From assembly GCA_021608145.1 (NCBI GenBank), contig JAKIHM010000015.1, positions 1 through 56,969 of the forward strand: a stretch of 56,969 nt of DNA. Direction: 5' to 3'. Every line of letters starts with the position of its first letter. Within the stretch, counting starts at the first letter, position 1. This DNA is from Thermovorax subterraneus. GTDB lineage: Bacteria; Bacillota; Thermosediminibacteria; Thermosediminibacterales; Thermosediminibacteraceae. Under the pieces are notes generated by a model. That model was given only the letters and a program-made list of their open reading frames with translations, had not been told where the DNA came from and made no database searches. Position numbers and translations under genes: made by a program. Below are positions 15,795-55,438 of this stretch, piece after piece.

Positions 15795-16857
15795 CGGGGT
15801 ATGGTGGTCGCATTTGAGCGTTCAATTAATAGATATATTAGAAAAAGCGGTTGAAATAAAAGCTTCGGATATCCATTTAACGGTGGGATTGCACCCAGTT
15901 TTCCGTTGTAATGGAGTGCTGGAGCCTCGAACGGAATGGCCGGTGCTTGATGCTTCCGATACGGAGAGGTTGGCCAGAGAAATTTTGGGTGGGAGATGGG
16001 AAGAATTTATCCAAAAAAAGGAGATTGATCTTGCATATTCTGTAGCAGGATTGGGACGATTCAGGGTGAACACTTTTTTCCAGCGGGGAAGCGTGAGCCT
16101 TGCCATACGCCTTGTGGGAGATTTAATTAGAAGTATAGAAGAACTGGGGCTTCCACCGATCGTAGGCGAGCTCGCTGACAAAAGTCACGGCCTTGTTTTA
16201 GTTACCGGTCCTACAGGAAGCGGCAAAACCACTACCCTGGCGGCCATGATAGACAGGATCAACGAAACGCGAAGCTGCCATATAGTTACCTTGGAAGACC
16301 CAATAGAATACTTGCACCGGCATAAAAAGAGCATCGTAAATCAGCGGGAAATCGGCAGCGACTCTCCTTCCTTTGCCAGTGCCTTGAGGGCAGCACTGCG
16401 CCAGGACCCTGATGTAATTCTTGTTGGCGAGATGCGCGATCTGGAAACCATCGCTACTGCCATCACAGCAGCGGAAACGGGCCATCTGGTGCTGGCAACA
16501 TTGCATACAGGCAGCGCCGTTCAGAGCATAGATAGGATAATAGACATGTTCCCGCCCCACCAGCAAAACCAAGTAAGGTCTCAGCTGGCGGATGTATTGA
16601 TAGGGGTTGTGACTCAAAGGCTACTGCCCCGCGCCGACGACAGAGGGCGGGTGGCAGCAGTCGAGATTTTGATAGCGACTCCAGCGGTCAGAAATCTCAT
16701 AAGGGAAGGCAAGACTTACCAGATAATTTCGCTGATGCAGACCGGAAGCCGCTTTGGAATGCAGACGATGGAAATGTCAATCCTCCAACTTTGCCAAAGA
16801 GGGATAATTGATCCAAAAGCCTGTTTAATAGGAAAGGAAAATGATAATTTATCCTGA
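15784..16857 (+). CDS. pilT: Type IV pilus retraction ATPase PilT
   Basis: A 357-residue PilT ATPase: ASDIHLTVGLHPVFR near the N-terminus, Walker A GPTGSGKT around 142, Walker-B-like RQDPDVILVGEMRD, and the AIRNLIRE-like motif (AVRNLIREGK) near the C-terminus that PilT needs for retraction. It lacks the zinc tetracysteine of PilB. A GTG start at 15784 has GAGGGT 8 bases upstream and overlaps the pilB stop; an in-frame TTG at 15814 would give a more typical N-terminus. A c-di-GMP riboswitch follows immediately. Confidence 0.93.
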   Translation: MDFSGVWWSHLSVQLIDILEKAVEIKASDIHLTVGLHPVFRCNGVLEPRTEWPVLDASDTERLAREILGGRWEEFIQKKEIDLAYSVAGLGRFRVNTFFQRGSVSLAIRLVGDLIRSIEELGLPPIVGELADKSHGLVLVTGPTGSGKTTTLAAMIDRINETRSCHIVTLEDPIEYLHRHKKSIVNQREIGSDSPSFASALRAALRQDPDVILVGEMRDLETIATAITAAETGHLVLATLHTGSAVQSIDRIIDMFPPHQQNQVRSQLADVLIGVVTQRLLPRADDRGRVAAVEILIATPAVRNLIREGKTYQIISLMQTGSRFGMQTMEMSILQLCQRGIIDPKACLIGKENDNLS

Positions 16858-16936
16858 AAAGGGCAAACCCGGCGAAAGTCGGGGGCGCAAAGCTACGGGC
16901 CTAAGGGCTTATGCCTATGGCAGCCGGGCTGCCGGG
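16857..16936 (+). ncRNA. Cyclic di-GMP-I (GEMM) riboswitch
   Basis: The sequence matches the GEMM-I consensus in order: GGGCAAACC, a GAAA tetraloop stem, GGGGCGCAAAGC, ACGGGCCTAAGGG, and the closing TATGGCAGCCGGGCTGCC. It lies between pilT and pilC and overlaps the start of a terminator hairpin, so ligand binding should change read-through into pilC and the downstream pilin genes. c-di-GMP is the expected ligand; a cGAMP-binding variant would have to be excluded by alignment of the specificity base. Confidence 0.93.
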
Positions 16937-16960
16937 AGAAAATTCCCGGCATATTTTTTA
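16931..16960 (+). terminator. Expression-platform terminator of the c-di-GMP riboswitch
   Basis: GCCGGGAG, a short A-rich loop and TTCCCGGC form an 8-bp stem (16931-16950) followed by a T-rich tract. Its 5' arm overlaps the last bases of the aptamer's closing helix, so aptamer and terminator are mutually exclusive folds. The geometry suggests ligand binding sequesters the arm and turns transcription on, which is an inference. Confidence 0.8.
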
Positions 16961-40727: not shown

Positions 40728-40863
40728 CGAGGATATGCCTTCGGGGCAGGGTGAAATTCCCGACCGGCGGTGAGCCTGCAAGGCGAGCCCGCGAGCCCTT
40801 TTTATGGGGTTGACCCGGTGAAAATCCGGGGCCGACGGTTAAAGTCCGGATGGGAGAAGGCGA
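40728..40863 (+). ncRNA. FMN riboswitch (RFN element)
   Basis: The RFN consensus is present in order: AGGATATGCCTTCGGGGCAG, GGTGAAATTCCCGACCGGCG, GTGAGCCTGC, the variable arm with GCGAGCCC, GACCCGGTGAAAATCCGG and CCGACGGTTAAAGTCCGGAT ending GGGAGAAGG. It precedes the riboflavin transporter gene ribU. FMN binding should lower expression when flavin is sufficient. Confidence 0.96.
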
Positions 40864-40885
40864 GAATTTATTGTGTGACATTGTT

Positions 40886-48752: not shown

Positions 48753-49259
48753 ATGGGCTTGGCTATAATAAAACTATACGATATAGTGTTAAGGTACGGT
48801 TGGATTGCGATTTTTACTGTTTTTGCCTTGGAAGGAACGGGAATGCCGCTGCCCGTACAGGTGGTATTCATAGCTGCGGCCTTTCTCATAAAGACCGGAA
48901 GAATTTCTTTCTGGAAAACGGTAATAATCATGGCTCTAGGGAACCTTTTGGGAAACGTGCTCGCATATTATGCGGGTCGCACGAAAGGAAAACCCTTTTT
49001 CGACAGGTACGGGGGGAAAATTAAGCTTTGGCGGAAAGGCTTTGAAAAGATAAAAGAGTGGTACATCCGCTACGGAGGTCCTTTCATAATCGCAAGCAGG
49101 TTTATTGGGATTCCGCGCACTCCGGCTATATGGGCTTCGGGCGTCGTTGGAATAGATTTTAAAGTTTATGTGATTTACAGTTTTCTTGCGGATTTTTTGT
49201 GGGCATGTTTTTATACCTTTTTGATGTATAAGGGGCTTACCTTATTTCCTCAGATATAA
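48753..49259 (+). CDS. DedA-family membrane protein
   Basis: A 168-residue DedA/SNARE-associated (VTT) protein with four or five hydrophobic stretches: AIFTVFALEGTGMPLPVQVV carries the conserved Glu, GNLLGNVLAYYAGR the glycine motif, and IIASRFIGIPRTPAIWASGV the Arg/Pro motif. DedA proteins help move lipids such as undecaprenyl phosphate and support membrane potential. It is followed directly by the structured non-coding element. Confidence 0.88.
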   Translation: MGLAIIKLYDIVLRYGWIAIFTVFALEGTGMPLPVQVVFIAAAFLIKTGRISFWKTVIIMALGNLLGNVLAYYAGRTKGKPFFDRYGGKIKLWRKGFEKIKEWYIRYGGPFIIASRFIGIPRTPAIWASGVVGIDFKVYVIYSFLADFLWACFYTFLMYKGLTLFPQI

Positions 49260-49270
49260 ATAGAAAGTAA

Positions 49271-49690
49271 GAGCCCGCAGCAACCTACGCTACGGCTATC
49301 AGAGATCTCTACGTAGCCCGCTGCAACCTTTAGGCTGCATGGGACCATTACAAAACCTCTGATAACCTTCGCTCGACCTTCACGAGTACCTTAGAAACCT
49401 TAAGCAATCTCTCGACTGCTTAAGACCTCGAGTCAAACCTCATTAAAAGGTCGTGACCTGCGGAACCCATGAAGATCTTAGCTCGAATGTTATGCATCCT
49501 TTTGGACCCTTGAATGACCCAATCAGGCCATCCAAGAGCCTTATAAGACACATAACACTCTGCCCGCCGGCCGGTACCGGTGTTTGGCACCCGGTACCGA
49601 CCTTTGGCCGACCGCCGCAGGACCTTATCAAAGTCCTGCGGCGATCTTGGCTCGGCTGCTGCGAACCCTTACGTTCTTATTTTTCCCCCT
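49271..49690. ncRNA. Putative large structured non-coding RNA, family unknown
   Basis: About 420 bases without a credible reading frame but rich in nested inverted repeats: GCAGC/GCTGC (49277/49320) enclosing CTACG/CGTAG (49285/49312); TATCAGAG/CTCTGATA (49297/49357); CTTAAGCA/TGCTTAAG (49399/49417); GGTCGTGACC (49449); TGTTATG/CATAACA (49488/49551); GGTACCGGTG/CACCCGGTACC (49573/49588); and a perfect 11-bp CGCCGCAGGAC/GTCCTGCGGCG (49613/49633). ACCT (AGGT on the other strand) recurs about twelve times between helices. The strand is unclear; linkers are purine-rich if read on minus. I could not match it to RNase P, tmRNA, 6S, OLE, T-box or riboswitches I know. Confidence 0.6.
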
Positions 49691-49737
49691 TTGAAAATTA
49701 ATATACATTTTTTAAGAGATTGAGGAGGCATTTTTGA

Positions 49738-51486
49738 ATGTCAATAAATGGAAACGAAAAATTAAAAAGTTATATAGCTTTTGACCCACTCCAATTGGAA
49801 GAATTCAAAAGGAGGACGCTGGGTTTCGGGTCGATCGGAGGAAAGGCTAAGGGATTTTTGTTTTCGAAGCTACTGCTTGAAAAGAAGGAAGATGAAATTT
49901 TAACTAACGTGACAATACCTACTAGCTATTTTATAGCGACTAGTGTATATGAAGACTTTATTGAAAAAAATAAGATTTACAAGATTATAGAGGACACGCC
50001 GGATGAAATTGAGAAAATTCAAAAGGCCATTATGGGTGGGGATTTTCCCGAATACGTGATCGGGTTTCTGAGGAAGATTGTTGCTGAGATGGACTATCCT
50101 CTGGCAATCAGGTCGTCTTCGATGCTGGAGGACAGCGTGAAATACTCTTTTGCAGGCAAATATTTTACTACGTTCATACCAAATAATGGGGGCGAAAAAC
50201 AAAGACTGCACCAGATAACTTTTGCGATAAAACAGGTTTATGCCAGCACGTTTGGGATAAATGCGGTGGTATATAGAAAAAAGCATAACCTACCCGAAGA
50301 AAAGATGGCGGTCATCGTTCAGCAACTTTTTGGAAAACAAAGGGGCGATGGTTTTTACCCGGAAATTGCGGGTGTGGGGTTTTCCCAGAATTACCGGCGC
50401 TTTACGGAGAGGATACGCAAAGAAGATGGGGTCGTTCGGATGGTCTTCGGCCTCGGCACGAGGAGCACGAATAGAGGGTATGCGAGAACCTTCTCGCTGA
50501 CGAATCTGGAATTGAGGCCGGAAGGAAATAATGTCCAGGAGATTGCCAAGTATTCCCAGGAAACTTTTGATATGCTGAACTTGAAGACGGGATATTTGGA
50601 ATCTTACAATATCAATGAGCGGCTCGACCTGATACCGTATCACAGGAACTTTAATAAACTCTGCAGCCTCTATTCTGCCTACGAAAACGTGATAAAGGAT
50701 ATTCCTGCAGTGATATCTTCCCTAGGCCCGGGAGAAAAGCTTATATTCACCTTTGACAGGTTTCCCGCATATAAACCCCGTTTTTTCAAATTGATGAAAT
50801 ATCTTTTTTCAGTGCTCGAGGATGCGATGGGAATTGCAGTGGATGTGGAGTGGGCGTACGAGCCCGAAGATCCGAAGTTTGCCCTGATTCAGGTAAGGCC
50901 CCTTTCGAGCAAGGAAGAATACCGCAAGGTAAGGATTCCGGAAGGAATAAAAAGGGAGGATATTATACTTGCCGGCGACCGAATGCTGACCAACGGTATG
51001 GTGCGGGGGGTAAAATTTCTGGTCTACGTGGACCACGACGAATTTTACGCAAGTCCTGACAAATACGCTATTGCCAGGGAAGTGGGAAGGGTTAACGAGA
51101 GCCTTGCGGGGGAAAAGTATATCCTGGTGGGGCCGGGGCGGTGGGGCTCAAGCAACCCCTTACAGGGCGTTCCTGTAAATTATAACGAAATCTGCAACTG
51201 CGGAGTTCTTGTGGAGGTAGGGATTCAAAGGAAGAATTTAACACCGGAACTTTCTTACGGCACCCACTTTTTCGCCGATCTTGAGCTGGACGGCATTCTG
51301 TACATGCCCGTCTTCGATAACATTAAGACAAATATCATTAATTTCGACTGGTTTAAAAGCGCTCCCAAAAAGGCGACTGGACATAAGGCCGTTTGGATTT
51401 ATGAAGGGAAATTTGATGTTTATCTGGACGGGGATAATATGAAAGGTGTGATAGTCAAAAATGAAGACGGGCTAAAGGAGACATGA
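49738..51486 (+). CDS. PEP/pyruvate-binding (PPDK N-terminal-like) protein
   Basis: A 582-residue protein whose first 400 residues resemble the ATP-grasp nucleotide-binding domain of PEP synthase and pyruvate phosphate dikinase: IGGKAKGFLFSKLL, MDYPLAIRSSSMLEDSVKYS, FAGKYFTTF and VDVEWAYEPEDPKFALIQVR. The phosphohistidine domain and PEP-binding barrel are missing. The last 170 residues (YILVGPGRWGSSNPLQGVPV; LSYGTHFFADLELDGILYMP) form a conserved-looking domain I cannot name. The ATG follows GAGGAGG. The substrate phosphorylated is unknown. Confidence 0.82.
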   Translation: MSINGNEKLKSYIAFDPLQLEEFKRRTLGFGSIGGKAKGFLFSKLLLEKKEDEILTNVTIPTSYFIATSVYEDFIEKNKIYKIIEDTPDEIEKIQKAIMGGDFPEYVIGFLRKIVAEMDYPLAIRSSSMLEDSVKYSFAGKYFTTFIPNNGGEKQRLHQITFAIKQVYASTFGINAVVYRKKHNLPEEKMAVIVQQLFGKQRGDGFYPEIAGVGFSQNYRRFTERIRKEDGVVRMVFGLGTRSTNRGYARTFSLTNLELRPEGNNVQEIAKYSQETFDMLNLKTGYLESYNINERLDLIPYHRNFNKLCSLYSAYENVIKDIPAVISSLGPGEKLIFTFDRFPAYKPRFFKLMKYLFSVLEDAMGIAVDVEWAYEPEDPKFALIQVRPLSSKEEYRKVRIPEGIKREDIILAGDRMLTNGMVRGVKFLVYVDHDEFYASPDKYAIAREVGRVNESLAGEKYILVGPGRWGSSNPLQGVPVNYNEICNCGVLVEVGIQRKNLTPELSYGTHFFADLELDGILYMPVFDNIKTNIINFDWFKSAPKKATGHKAVWIYEGKFDVYLDGDNMKGVIVKNEDGLKET

Positions 51487-51513: not shown

Positions 51514-53691
51514 TCATCTTTCCGCTACTAAGAATCGGACGAGGGCAACAGCTGCCTGGGCTCTGGTAACCACCGCCTGAGGCAGGAAATTGCCCGAGAT
51601 ACCCCTGATAAGCCCAAGACCCATTGCTATTGCCGCATGGCCCCTGTAAGCCGGATTTACTGCCGAGGCGTCTTTTGCCTTTATTATATATATATCGTTA
51701 ATCGAAGCTACCTTCTCAAACCCCATAGCTCTTACTAAAACTGCCGCCATCAATTCCCTAGAAATGGGGCTTTGTTTAGCGACTTCTCCCTTTTTGATCA
51801 ATCCTAGCCTTACAGCGGTTTCGATTATTTTTTCGTCCTGGTCTACGGTTTCCTGCGTTTCACTATTATTTACATATTCGGGCATGGGCTTTGCCATACC
51901 TGTTATTGGGTAGCCGCCCGTAGCTTTAAGCGTCATTTTCAAAAATTCAGTTGCTTTTATTTTTTCATCAGGACCGAATTTATCGCTTTCAGCTTCTATT
52001 ATACCCAGGTCGCAAAGTAGCCTTATCTCCTTTTCCGCCCAGTGGCCTTTTATGTCTATAAATTCGATTTTGGGTTTTTCCTCGATGGTATTTCCCGCAT
52101 AATCTAGGGGCTTCATGTTAAAGGCGTCAAAGGTGTAAGAGCTGAAGGGAGTAATTCTATATACGAGCTTGTAATTGCTTTTTCCCGATTCATAAAACGG
52201 CACGTACGAAAGCTGCAGGCCTATTTTTTCCAAAAAGAGCTTTTCAGCGTCGCCTTCACTTATTATTCCGGCGGGTTCGGGGAAAGAAGCCTCCGTCCAT
52301 CTGGTGTAGTAACTTAAAATCTTGCCGGTTTCAGCGTCAACGGTTACGCTAAAGCCATTGTCCGGGAAGGGTATGTCGTTTACCTGCCTTACATAATTGA
52401 AGCCGAATTCCCTGACTTCTCCGGAAGTCGGTGGTTGGCTTACGGGTTTTTCGAGCTTTACCATGCCGTACTTTTCAGGCTGCACCGTTTTCAAAAATTC
52501 ATCGGCCTTTTTCTGAGCATCTTCCAGGTTTAGGTTCTGCCTGAAATCCTGGGTGTATCTTGAACTGTCGTATATATAAAAACTTAAGAGTTCTGAGCTT
52601 GAAGCGTCAACCTGTGCATTAATGTTGCCGTAGTCTTCGGGCTTATCAGATCTTTTTTCCCAGCTTAAGCTCCACAACCTTCGGCCCGGATTTTCGTAGT
52701 CCTCGTAAAGCGATGCATATTGCTGCACATAGTTCTCGGGAATTTCCACGTATTTTTTTACGATTTCGATAGCTTTTTCCTTTGATATGAGTTTTTTTGC
52801 ATCTTCCAGCTCCTTTTGCTCCTGGGGAGTGAGTTCGGTCAAAGCCTGTTTGTTTACATCACCCGCTCCGGCTTCCCCATAATATGGCGGGTACCTGTAA
52901 TCAGGGCCTCTTTGTATGACCTCGCCTGAGTAAGCATCAACAAAGAAGCTGTGAGGACTTTCTATTTGATAAACCAGCTTTATTTTGGGCTGCCTTTTTT
53001 CATAGTCGAAGTAACGCTTGTAAATCAAATTCAACCCGCATTTTTCGAGGAAAATCTTTTCGGCATCACCTTTTGACAGGATTTTTGCGGGGGAGGGTAG
53101 CTGGCCGAAATACCACTCGAAACTGTAATCTATAACCTGGCCCGTAAAGGCGTCTACCGTTATATAAAAACCATTGTCGACTACCGGAATACCCTCGTGT
53201 ATCCGTTGAAAATAAAAGTAATACTGCCTCGCATAAAGATCGATGAGAGGTCTTACCGGAGGCAACGAATTGGGGCTAAGTACCGTGTTTTTGAACTCCT
53301 CGGGTTGGAGCTTTGTTGCGAACCCTTTAGCGATGTTCTTTGCCTCGTCTTCCGAAAATTTTGGCAAAATTGCGCCTTTTCCAAAGTCACTTCCAGGGTA
53401 TATGGAAAGATGCTTTATGTATCCCCTGTCGGCGTCCACCGTAGCATAAAGGCTCGCGTAAGGCTCTTTAGAAGTGGTCCAATTTAAATACCAGAAAGCG
53501 CCTTCTGGTGTTTCCCTGTAATCCATTGAAAATTTGTCGTATATCCTAGTGTCGAAAAATTTCTTTACGAGTTCTACCGCCTGCTCTCGAGAAATTTTCG
53601 GACTTTCGCCTTCTAATGCGAAAGCAGGAAAGGCCGAGAAAACCAGGAAAAGGATAAACAAAATCATGATAGAACTAATAAATTTTTTCAA
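51514..53691 (-). CDS. SLH-domain surface protein with two YcdB/PepSY-like repeats
   Basis: A 725-residue secreted protein: signal peptide (about 1-25, ending FPAFALEG), two homologous modules (about 30-260 and 295-530) that share SREQAVELVKKFFDTR / SKEKAIEIVKKYVEI and repeated VDAFTGQVIDY / VDAETGKILSY turns as in YcdB/YcdC and PepSY-like proteins, and three SLH repeats (FIDIKGHWAEKEIRLLCDLG, then the 600s, then ASAVNPAYRGHAAIAMGLGL). SLH repeats anchor it to the cell-wall polymer. The start is TTG 53691, with GGAGGG upstream. Such proteins may inhibit proteases at the cell surface. Confidence 0.85.
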   Translation of the reverse strand: MKKFISSIMILFILFLVFSAFPAFALEGESPKISREQAVELVKKFFDTRIYDKFSMDYRETPEGAFWYLNWTTSKEPYASLYATVDADRGYIKHLSIYPGSDFGKGAILPKFSEDEAKNIAKGFATKLQPEEFKNTVLSPNSLPPVRPLIDLYARQYYFYFQRIHEGIPVVDNGFYITVDAFTGQVIDYSFEWYFGQLPSPAKILSKGDAEKIFLEKCGLNLIYKRYFDYEKRQPKIKLVYQIESPHSFFVDAYSGEVIQRGPDYRYPPYYGEAGAGDVNKQALTELTPQEQKELEDAKKLISKEKAIEIVKKYVEIPENYVQQYASLYEDYENPGRRLWSLSWEKRSDKPEDYGNINAQVDASSSELLSFYIYDSSRYTQDFRQNLNLEDAQKKADEFLKTVQPEKYGMVKLEKPVSQPPTSGEVREFGFNYVRQVNDIPFPDNGFSVTVDAETGKILSYYTRWTEASFPEPAGIISEGDAEKLFLEKIGLQLSYVPFYESGKSNYKLVYRITPFSSYTFDAFNMKPLDYAGNTIEEKPKIEFIDIKGHWAEKEIRLLCDLGIIEAESDKFGPDEKIKATEFLKMTLKATGGYPITGMAKPMPEYVNNSETQETVDQDEKIIETAVRLGLIKKGEVAKQSPISRELMAAVLVRAMGFEKVASINDIYIIKAKDASAVNPAYRGHAAIAMGLGLIRGISGNFLPQAVVTRAQAAVALVRFLVAER

Positions 53692-55148: not shown

Positions 55149-55324
55149 AGCGGTACCACTCCGGATATCCTCACTTTTATTTATTATACAGAAAATTTTA
55201 GCATAGGGCAAAAAATAGAAACGAACGATTCGCAAAATTAGGCTAAAAATTGTTCGATTTCATATTGACTTTTCCAGATTCATCTGGTAATATAAAGGTA
55301 AACTTAAAACCGCCCCTTTTTTGA

Positions 55325-55397
55325 CCCCTATATAATTCCGGGAATATGGCCCGGAAGTTTCTACCGGGTGGCCGTAAACCACCGAAGGCTATAGGGG
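55325..55397 (+). ncRNA. Purine-type riboswitch aptamer (atypical 3' junction)
   Basis: P1 pairs CCCCTATA with TATAGGGG. The core contains ATATAATTCC, the P2 loop GAATATGGCCC, the J2/3 AAGTTTCTACC and the P3 loop CCGTAAA, all hallmarks of purine aptamers. The 3' junction reads CCACCGAAGGCTATAGG instead of the usual stem-GACTATG, so about three extra bases separate P3 from the specificity pyrimidine. Specificity (guanine, xanthine or other) is therefore uncertain. It lies in front of a purine permease. Confidence 0.9.
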
Positions 55398-55410
55398 AAA
55401 AAATTCCTTT

Positions 55411-55438
55411 CCCCGATAGTCGGGGACTTTTTATTTTT
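55411..55438 (+). terminator. Expression-platform terminator of the purine riboswitch
   Basis: CCCCGA, a 3-base loop and TCGGGG form a perfect 6-bp stem followed by ACTTTTTATTTTT. The upstream GGGGAAAA at the end of P1 can pair with TTTCCCC, forming a competing antiterminator. Ligand binding should favour termination. Confidence 0.88.

Follow-up and report, generated by a model that had tools for sequence, protein, structure and literature searches.

Within the 56,969-nucleotide (nt) stretch of Thermovorax subterraneus DNA analysed here (contig JAKIHM010000015.1 of GenBank assembly GCA_021608145.1; hereafter the window), the gap between a dedA-like gene and a gene with a PPDK_N domain contains the gene for a folded RNA of ~410 nt, which lies on the minus strand at positions 49262–49672. 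The original prediction, made from the letters of the sequence, had described a large structured element in the gap at 49271–49690; the RNA element is slightly larger than that, and its promoter reaches 49706. These boundaries are drawn from the fold of this strand, an alignment of 34 sequences (A1) and the consensus structure, with the 5' end placed at ~49670–49672 by the position of the promoter and the 3' end at ~49262 by a terminator-like tail. Both flanking genes are on the plus strand and lie outside the element: the dedA gene (48753–49259; VTT domain, PF09335, E = 8.2e-18) is tail to tail with the RNA, and the PPDK_N-domain gene (49738–51486; PF01326, E = 2.8e-41) is divergent from it. 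The RNA is single-copy in the T. subterraneus genome.

The original prediction had left the strand unresolved, and had seen neither the forespore promoter nor the six-fold repeats described below. Both strands fold far beyond their shuffles, though very unequally: the minus-strand RNA has a minimum free energy of -245.9 kcal/mol (z = -17.4), as against -150.3 kcal/mol (z = -8.5) for the plus-strand RNA. The difference arises because G-U pairs, which make up 29 of the 147 consensus pairs in the T. subterraneus sequence, are possible only in the minus-strand RNA. Since all full-length homologues display the same asymmetry (-216 to -270 kcal/mol on the RNA strand versus -95 to -177 kcal/mol on the opposite one), the strand of the RNA is settled as minus, and the plus strand was rejected. 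A coding remnant was likewise rejected. Open reading frames in the gap had no Pfam match, and among homologues, whose longest open stretch can be as short as 54 or as long as 140 codons, no reading frame is conserved, which bears out the earlier statement that the gap holds no credible protein.

The RNA is a six-way junction formed by a closing stem, P1, and five arms, P2 to P6 (all coordinates on the minus strand). The 5' arm of P1 (49650–49669, including a GC collar of 2 base pairs (bp)) pairs with its 3' arm (49270–49290), directly after which comes the U-rich tail; the 16-bp main helix is 99.8% paired in the alignment and has double changes at 9 of its 16 bp. P2 (49610–49646) has 16 bp, 98.7% paired, with double changes at 12 of 16, and P3 (49564–49607) has 14 bp plus a 2-bp collar, 97.3% paired, with double changes at 9 of 14. 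Second helices are present in P4, P5 and P6, together with a variable side arm in P5. P4 (49485–49560; 16 bp, 96.1% paired, double changes at 10 of 16) carries the distal P4b (49527–49540/49505–49518; 14 bp, 99.4%, 11 of 14). P5 (49371–49482; 97.9% paired) carries the variable P5a (49454–49457/49432–49435; 82.6%) as well as P5b (49414–49429/49394–49409; 96.7%), which is capped by a GNRA-type loop. P6 (49294–49367; 98.3% paired, double changes at 13 of 16) carries P6b (49333–49347/49314–49328; 98.4%, 8 of 13), and its apical loop reads UAAA in T. subterraneus and GAAA in most relatives. The hairpin loops of P2, P3, P4 and P5a are variable, while helices and linkers are conserved. All the stems that had been listed from the sequence are present in this structure: the perfect stem at 49613/49633 is P2, and the long-range pairs TATCAGAG/CTCTGATA and TGTTATG/CATAACA are the base of P6 and P4, respectively.

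Several measures of covariation agree with this structure. The consensus obtained from A1 with RNAalifold comprises 147 pairs, 101 of them with compensatory double changes. By an independent count, 97.6% of the A1 cells are paired, compared with 83.2% in shuffles, and 807 cells hold double changes, compared with 211 in shuffles, a value as high as the observed one being reached in 0 of 500. Sliding the pairing partner by 1–3 columns lowers pairing to 32–46%. Covariation is found in all twelve consensus helices except one 2-bp collar. In a larger alignment of 85 sequences, 77 of the top 100 covarying column pairs after average product correction lie in the predicted structure; a search of the same signal for pseudoknots or tertiary contacts yielded nothing clear beyond one pair that extends P6 (49369/49292), the other off-structure pairs looking phylogenetic. 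From these comparisons, a conserved structured RNA at this locus is a near certainty.

Homologues were recovered at three depths. Using blastn (E < 1e-6), we found them in 33 of 101 related genomes, at 61–99% identity after realignment. R1, a covariance model built on the final 112 nt of the RNA, has matches in 136 of 299 relatives. A search of 84,980 species with a degenerate pattern gave 95 stretches, and R1 confirmed nearly all of these; four pattern loci (L123, L126, L154 and L155) had no R1 hit and were set aside as chance matches. The same star emerges from single-sequence folding in ten more genomes, whose R1 hits are lower-scoring or repeated. The original prediction had proposed looking for homologues with covarying pairs, and these numbers, together with the absence of an Rfam match (below), support its suggestion of a new ornate RNA. 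Hosts include Fervidicola, Thermosediminibacter, Tepidanaerobacter, Thermoanaerobacter, Caldanaerobacter, Moorella, Pelotomaculum and Acetivibrio, as well as Clostridium psychrophilum and its cold-adapted relatives, Propionispora, Lucifera, Symbiobacterium and a Thermaerobacter metagenome-assembled genome (MAG). A search centred on Propionispora mostly reached genomes of the same broad phylum and does not count as independent evidence. In IMG/VR the RNA was not found apart from two chance pattern matches, both without an R1 match; the confirmed loci are all in bacterial genome records.

Some genomes are multicopy, among them Lucifera with four loci and the MAG SKW257 with seven. The SKW257 copies (L063, L099, L116, L119, L127, L139 and L145) are divergent, two of them sit ~9 kb apart on one contig, and these paralogues may differ in role. 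Genome G099 has two full copies on one contig (L025, 1318–1763 and 3933–4366), ~2.2 kb apart and each with a promoter-like box. In G006, of the same family, the alignment covers only the final ~100 nt of the RNA (L027, 6355–6800; blastn, 88% identity) and the full interval fails to fold on either strand (-110/-112 kcal/mol), though SpoIIR and small acid-soluble spore proteins (SASP) are present; this copy looks like a truncated remnant. A strong R1 match (L111, 111.9 bits) on a contig labelled as a Deltaproteobacteria MAG likely reflects a mis-binned Bacillota contig.

The neighbourhoods of the family, in which we sought a conserved protein partner and found none, comprise 602 proteins in 320 clusters, each of the large clusters being confined to particular lineages or belonging to a general superfamily, ABC transporters and HD-GYP proteins among them. 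Because its neighbours are conserved only within lineages, the RNA is a stand-alone gene. A minus-strand gene at 51514–53691 of the window, encoding a protein with DUF4901/PepSY repeats, SLH domains and a weak match of the YpeB sporulation type, stays close to the RNA in related genera. Elsewhere in the window, flavin mononucleotide (FMN), purine and cyclic di-GMP (c-di-GMP-I-GGC) riboswitch aptamers score above the Rfam gathering thresholds (40733–40865, 55308–55411 and 16853–16937, respectively).

The arms of the RNA resemble one another. Near-identical linkers with the pattern GC-NAAG precede them, and R1, which models the P6 unit, also matches the P5 unit and, in some cases, further units within one RNA, so that the RNA contains internal repeats. 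When the frequency of G-U pairs in A1 is plotted by distance from the junction, it peaks at base pairs 3, 12 and 14 (0.78, 0.83 and 0.59, against 0.24 overall), with p = 1e-5 in a permutation test for positions 12 and 14. These positions were picked after A1 had been viewed and were retested on 51 other RNAs through their own minimum-energy folds. Exactly five arms sit on the junction in 42 of the 51, and their 241 arms have wobble frequencies of 0.73, 0.75 and 0.58 at base pairs 3, 12 and 14; being homologues, these RNAs are ancestry-dependent, though more divergent than A1. Base pairs 3 and 14 are 11 bp, or one turn of A-form helix, apart and would face the same side. The repeats also account for a motif noticed earlier, about twelve ACCTs between helices: there are exactly 12 in 49271–49690 where 3.1 are expected under an order-1 Markov model, a count never reached in 5000 simulations, and they read on the RNA strand as the AGGT of arm starts (AAGGU) and wobble boxes. 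P5 and P6 start near-identically in relatives (TCGAGC[TA]AAG...GGGTTCCG), which suggests internal duplication of a hairpin module.

Directly upstream of P1 lies GTATA-N14-GGGAAAAATA, composed of a -35 box GTATA (49702–49706, minus strand) and, 14 nt from it, a -10 box GGGAAAAATA (GGNNANANTA; 49678–49687, minus strand). We take this motif to be of the sigma-F/sigma-G type, going by the consensus for Bacillus and Clostridium. A control independent of that assumption comes from the alpha/beta-type ssp genes of the same genomes, which are classic forespore genes and which have the same kind of motif, GTAT[AT]-N14/15-GGTTATATTA, where a promoter would be expected. Next to the 5' end, 81 of 88 elements match GYATA-N14-17-GGNNANANTA at 9 or more of its 11 positions, as against 10% of shuffled upstream regions; the -10 box reads CATAATA in many elements, and the promoter is also present in most of the ten divergent variants. 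A sigma-70-type promoter was looked for and none was found. At the opposite end, the U-rich tail (49262–49269, minus strand) resembles that of an intrinsic terminator; a T-rich run follows the closing helix in most homologues, longer in most relatives than in T. subterraneus, and the closing helix could thus act as the terminator hairpin. With a conserved promoter immediately next to the 5' end and a U-rich tail after the closing helix, a processed transcript, the second option of the original prediction, is less likely. Judged by these motifs, transcription of the RNA in the forespore is highly probable. Two reports describe sigma-F and sigma-G promoters as similar to each other (PMC3174212, PMC7438776).

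The distribution of the RNA is also linked to sporulation. SpoIIR is found in 249 of the 299 genomes searched with R1 and in 131 of the 136 that are RNA-positive (Fisher p = 6.6e-9, uncorrected for phylogeny); the remaining five carry SpoIVA, so that all 136 have one or the other. One genome, G015, is without SpoIIR, SpoIVA, SASP and the RNA, and its congeners are also without the RNA, so this is not a clean loss.

To place the RNA among known classes, we compared it with Rfam 15 and with the literature. No family exceeded its gathering threshold in the element or in 12 homologue-bearing loci (including those of Moorella, T. wiegelii, Acetivibrio, Pelotomaculum, Lucifera and Symbiobacterium), and relaxing the thresholds brought up only matches that scored far below the family cut-offs, in line with the earlier impression that no known large RNA class fits. 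The literature searched, a scope outside which subscription journals and most preprints fall, contained no description of the RNA, nor of an architecture of repeated arms with G-U wobbles at fixed positions. OLE, a membrane-localised RNA with OapA and others as partner proteins, is similar in being large, ornate and stand-alone, in its hosts, which are Gram-positive extremophiles and anaerobes, and in having a function that is not settled (PMC12286853, PMC9723947). OLE is, however, ~600 nt long, compared with ~410 nt for the six-armed RNA, which, unlike OLE, combines a single six-way junction of repeated arms with a forespore-type promoter and has no Rfam match. ROOL and GOLLD are also large ornate RNAs, but they are phage- or prophage-encoded, often near tRNA islands, whereas the six-armed RNA is chromosomal and sporulation-linked, and again there is no Rfam match. 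The raiA motif, or ModT, is another widespread structured RNA of Bacillota and affects sporulation, yet it is made during exponential growth and influences c-di-GMP levels (PMC11706538); the promoter of the six-armed RNA implies late expression, and the raiA/ModT family has no Rfam match in it.

Bvs196/S547 and CsfG of Bacillus are the nearest functional precedents. As proposed for the six-armed RNA, they are stand-alone forespore RNAs with sigma-F/sigma-G promoters and a terminator, and Bvs196 has a conserved stable fold and affects spore resistance (PMC9147052). Bvs196, though, is 294 nt long, has a predicted folding energy of -82 kcal/mol and is located between hinT and ecsA, compared with ~410 nt, -246 kcal/mol and six arms here. 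We regard the six-armed RNA as probably a new class, absent from Rfam 15; a possible distant relationship with Bvs196/S547 is the main threat to its novelty, along with publications outside the searched literature.

Our best reading, to which we assign a probability of roughly 0.8, is that the locus encodes a stand-alone, forespore-transcribed structural RNA of a new class, organised around a six-way junction, with a scaffold role as the least certain step. RNA polymerase carrying sigma-F or sigma-G would transcribe the RNA in the forespore, and the transcript would end at its own closing helix and U-rich tail, as at an intrinsic terminator. The RNA would then act by its shape, serving the spore, while it develops or lies dormant, as an architectural RNA or ribonucleoprotein scaffold. 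Every arm would present the same surface, roughly the length of one A-form turn, and either a small forespore protein of high abundance or adjacent copies of the RNA could dock there. It is the regular, repeated arms that lead us to propose, tentatively, that the RNA is architectural and serves as a scaffold or binding hub; the RNA-only homo-oligomers formed by ROOL and GOLLD provide a precedent (PMC12286853). More speculative still is a quasi-six-fold hub, in which six arms with the same wobble-marked face would let spore proteins or RNA copies assemble into a regular scaffold of the spore core.

Some observations weigh against this reading. Most RNA-negative genomes also sporulate, and 118 of the 249 SpoIIR-positive genomes have no RNA hit, so either sporulation does not generally require the RNA or divergent copies escape the model. 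The sigma factor is assigned by motif only, and sigma-F and sigma-G are indistinguishable in it. In T. subterraneus itself the U-rich tail is interrupted (ACTTTCTATTT). The wobble pattern is weaker at base pair 14 of P4, in P5 and at base pair 3 of P2. Finally, the 85-sequence alignment gave no sign of tertiary or intermolecular covariation, leaving self-assembly unsupported.

Behind the scaffold role we rank titration of a protein and then antisense regulation. A sequestering or hibernation RNA of the spore, titrating a protein or ribosomal factor as 6S RNA does or as in the OLE/bS21 proposal, in which OLE sequesters RpsU (PMC12286853), would explain why the six linker/arm-start units (AAGGU/AAGAU) and the wobble boxes resemble multiple copies of one binding site; we consider it unlikely, as no partner protein is encoded nearby and most G and U residues of the repeats are engaged in base pairs. 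Somewhat less likely is a forespore regulatory RNA whose fold would only protect it and which would base-pair with spore mRNAs, the mode of action reported for Bvs196 of Bacillus velezensis. The same kind of promoter precedes the six-armed RNA, but most of its sequence lies in covarying helices, with hardly any long conserved unpaired stretch, and variable loops in P2, P3, P4 and P5a between conserved helices and linkers are the reverse of what a seed-pairing RNA would have.

Improbable, too, is a ribozyme or ligand-binding RNA active in sporulation or germination: although the strongly conserved linkers, the presence of internal loops in P4, P5 and P6 and the conservation of two GNRA-type loops would fit a tertiary fold, conservation is spread over six similar units with no single active core, and the 3' end is a terminator-like tail rather than a gene leader. 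The intergenic position, with a promoter and a terminator-like end, might also recall a cis-regulatory leader or riboswitch of an adjacent gene, but the RNA lies tail to tail with dedA, has its own U-rich tail and is followed by genes that are not conserved, which makes this very improbable. A DNA-level element, such as the end of a mobile element, a repetitive extragenic palindromic (REP)-like repeat or a cruciform, might account for several copies in some genomes (the seven loci of SKW257) but is the least credible explanation of all, given a strand-specific fold through G-U pairs, covariation, a single copy in T. subterraneus, conserved context within related lineages and a conserved promoter upstream.

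Large structured RNAs with an unresolved function are rare in bacteria, and every new class offers a testing ground for what RNA can do. The repeated, wobble-marked arms are relevant to RNA structure prediction and to nanostructure design. The promoter would tie this RNA to one compartment and one developmental stage, so that its function is testable in culturable hosts. If the reading is true, the endospore would have an RNA component that has been omitted from lists of sporulation genes.
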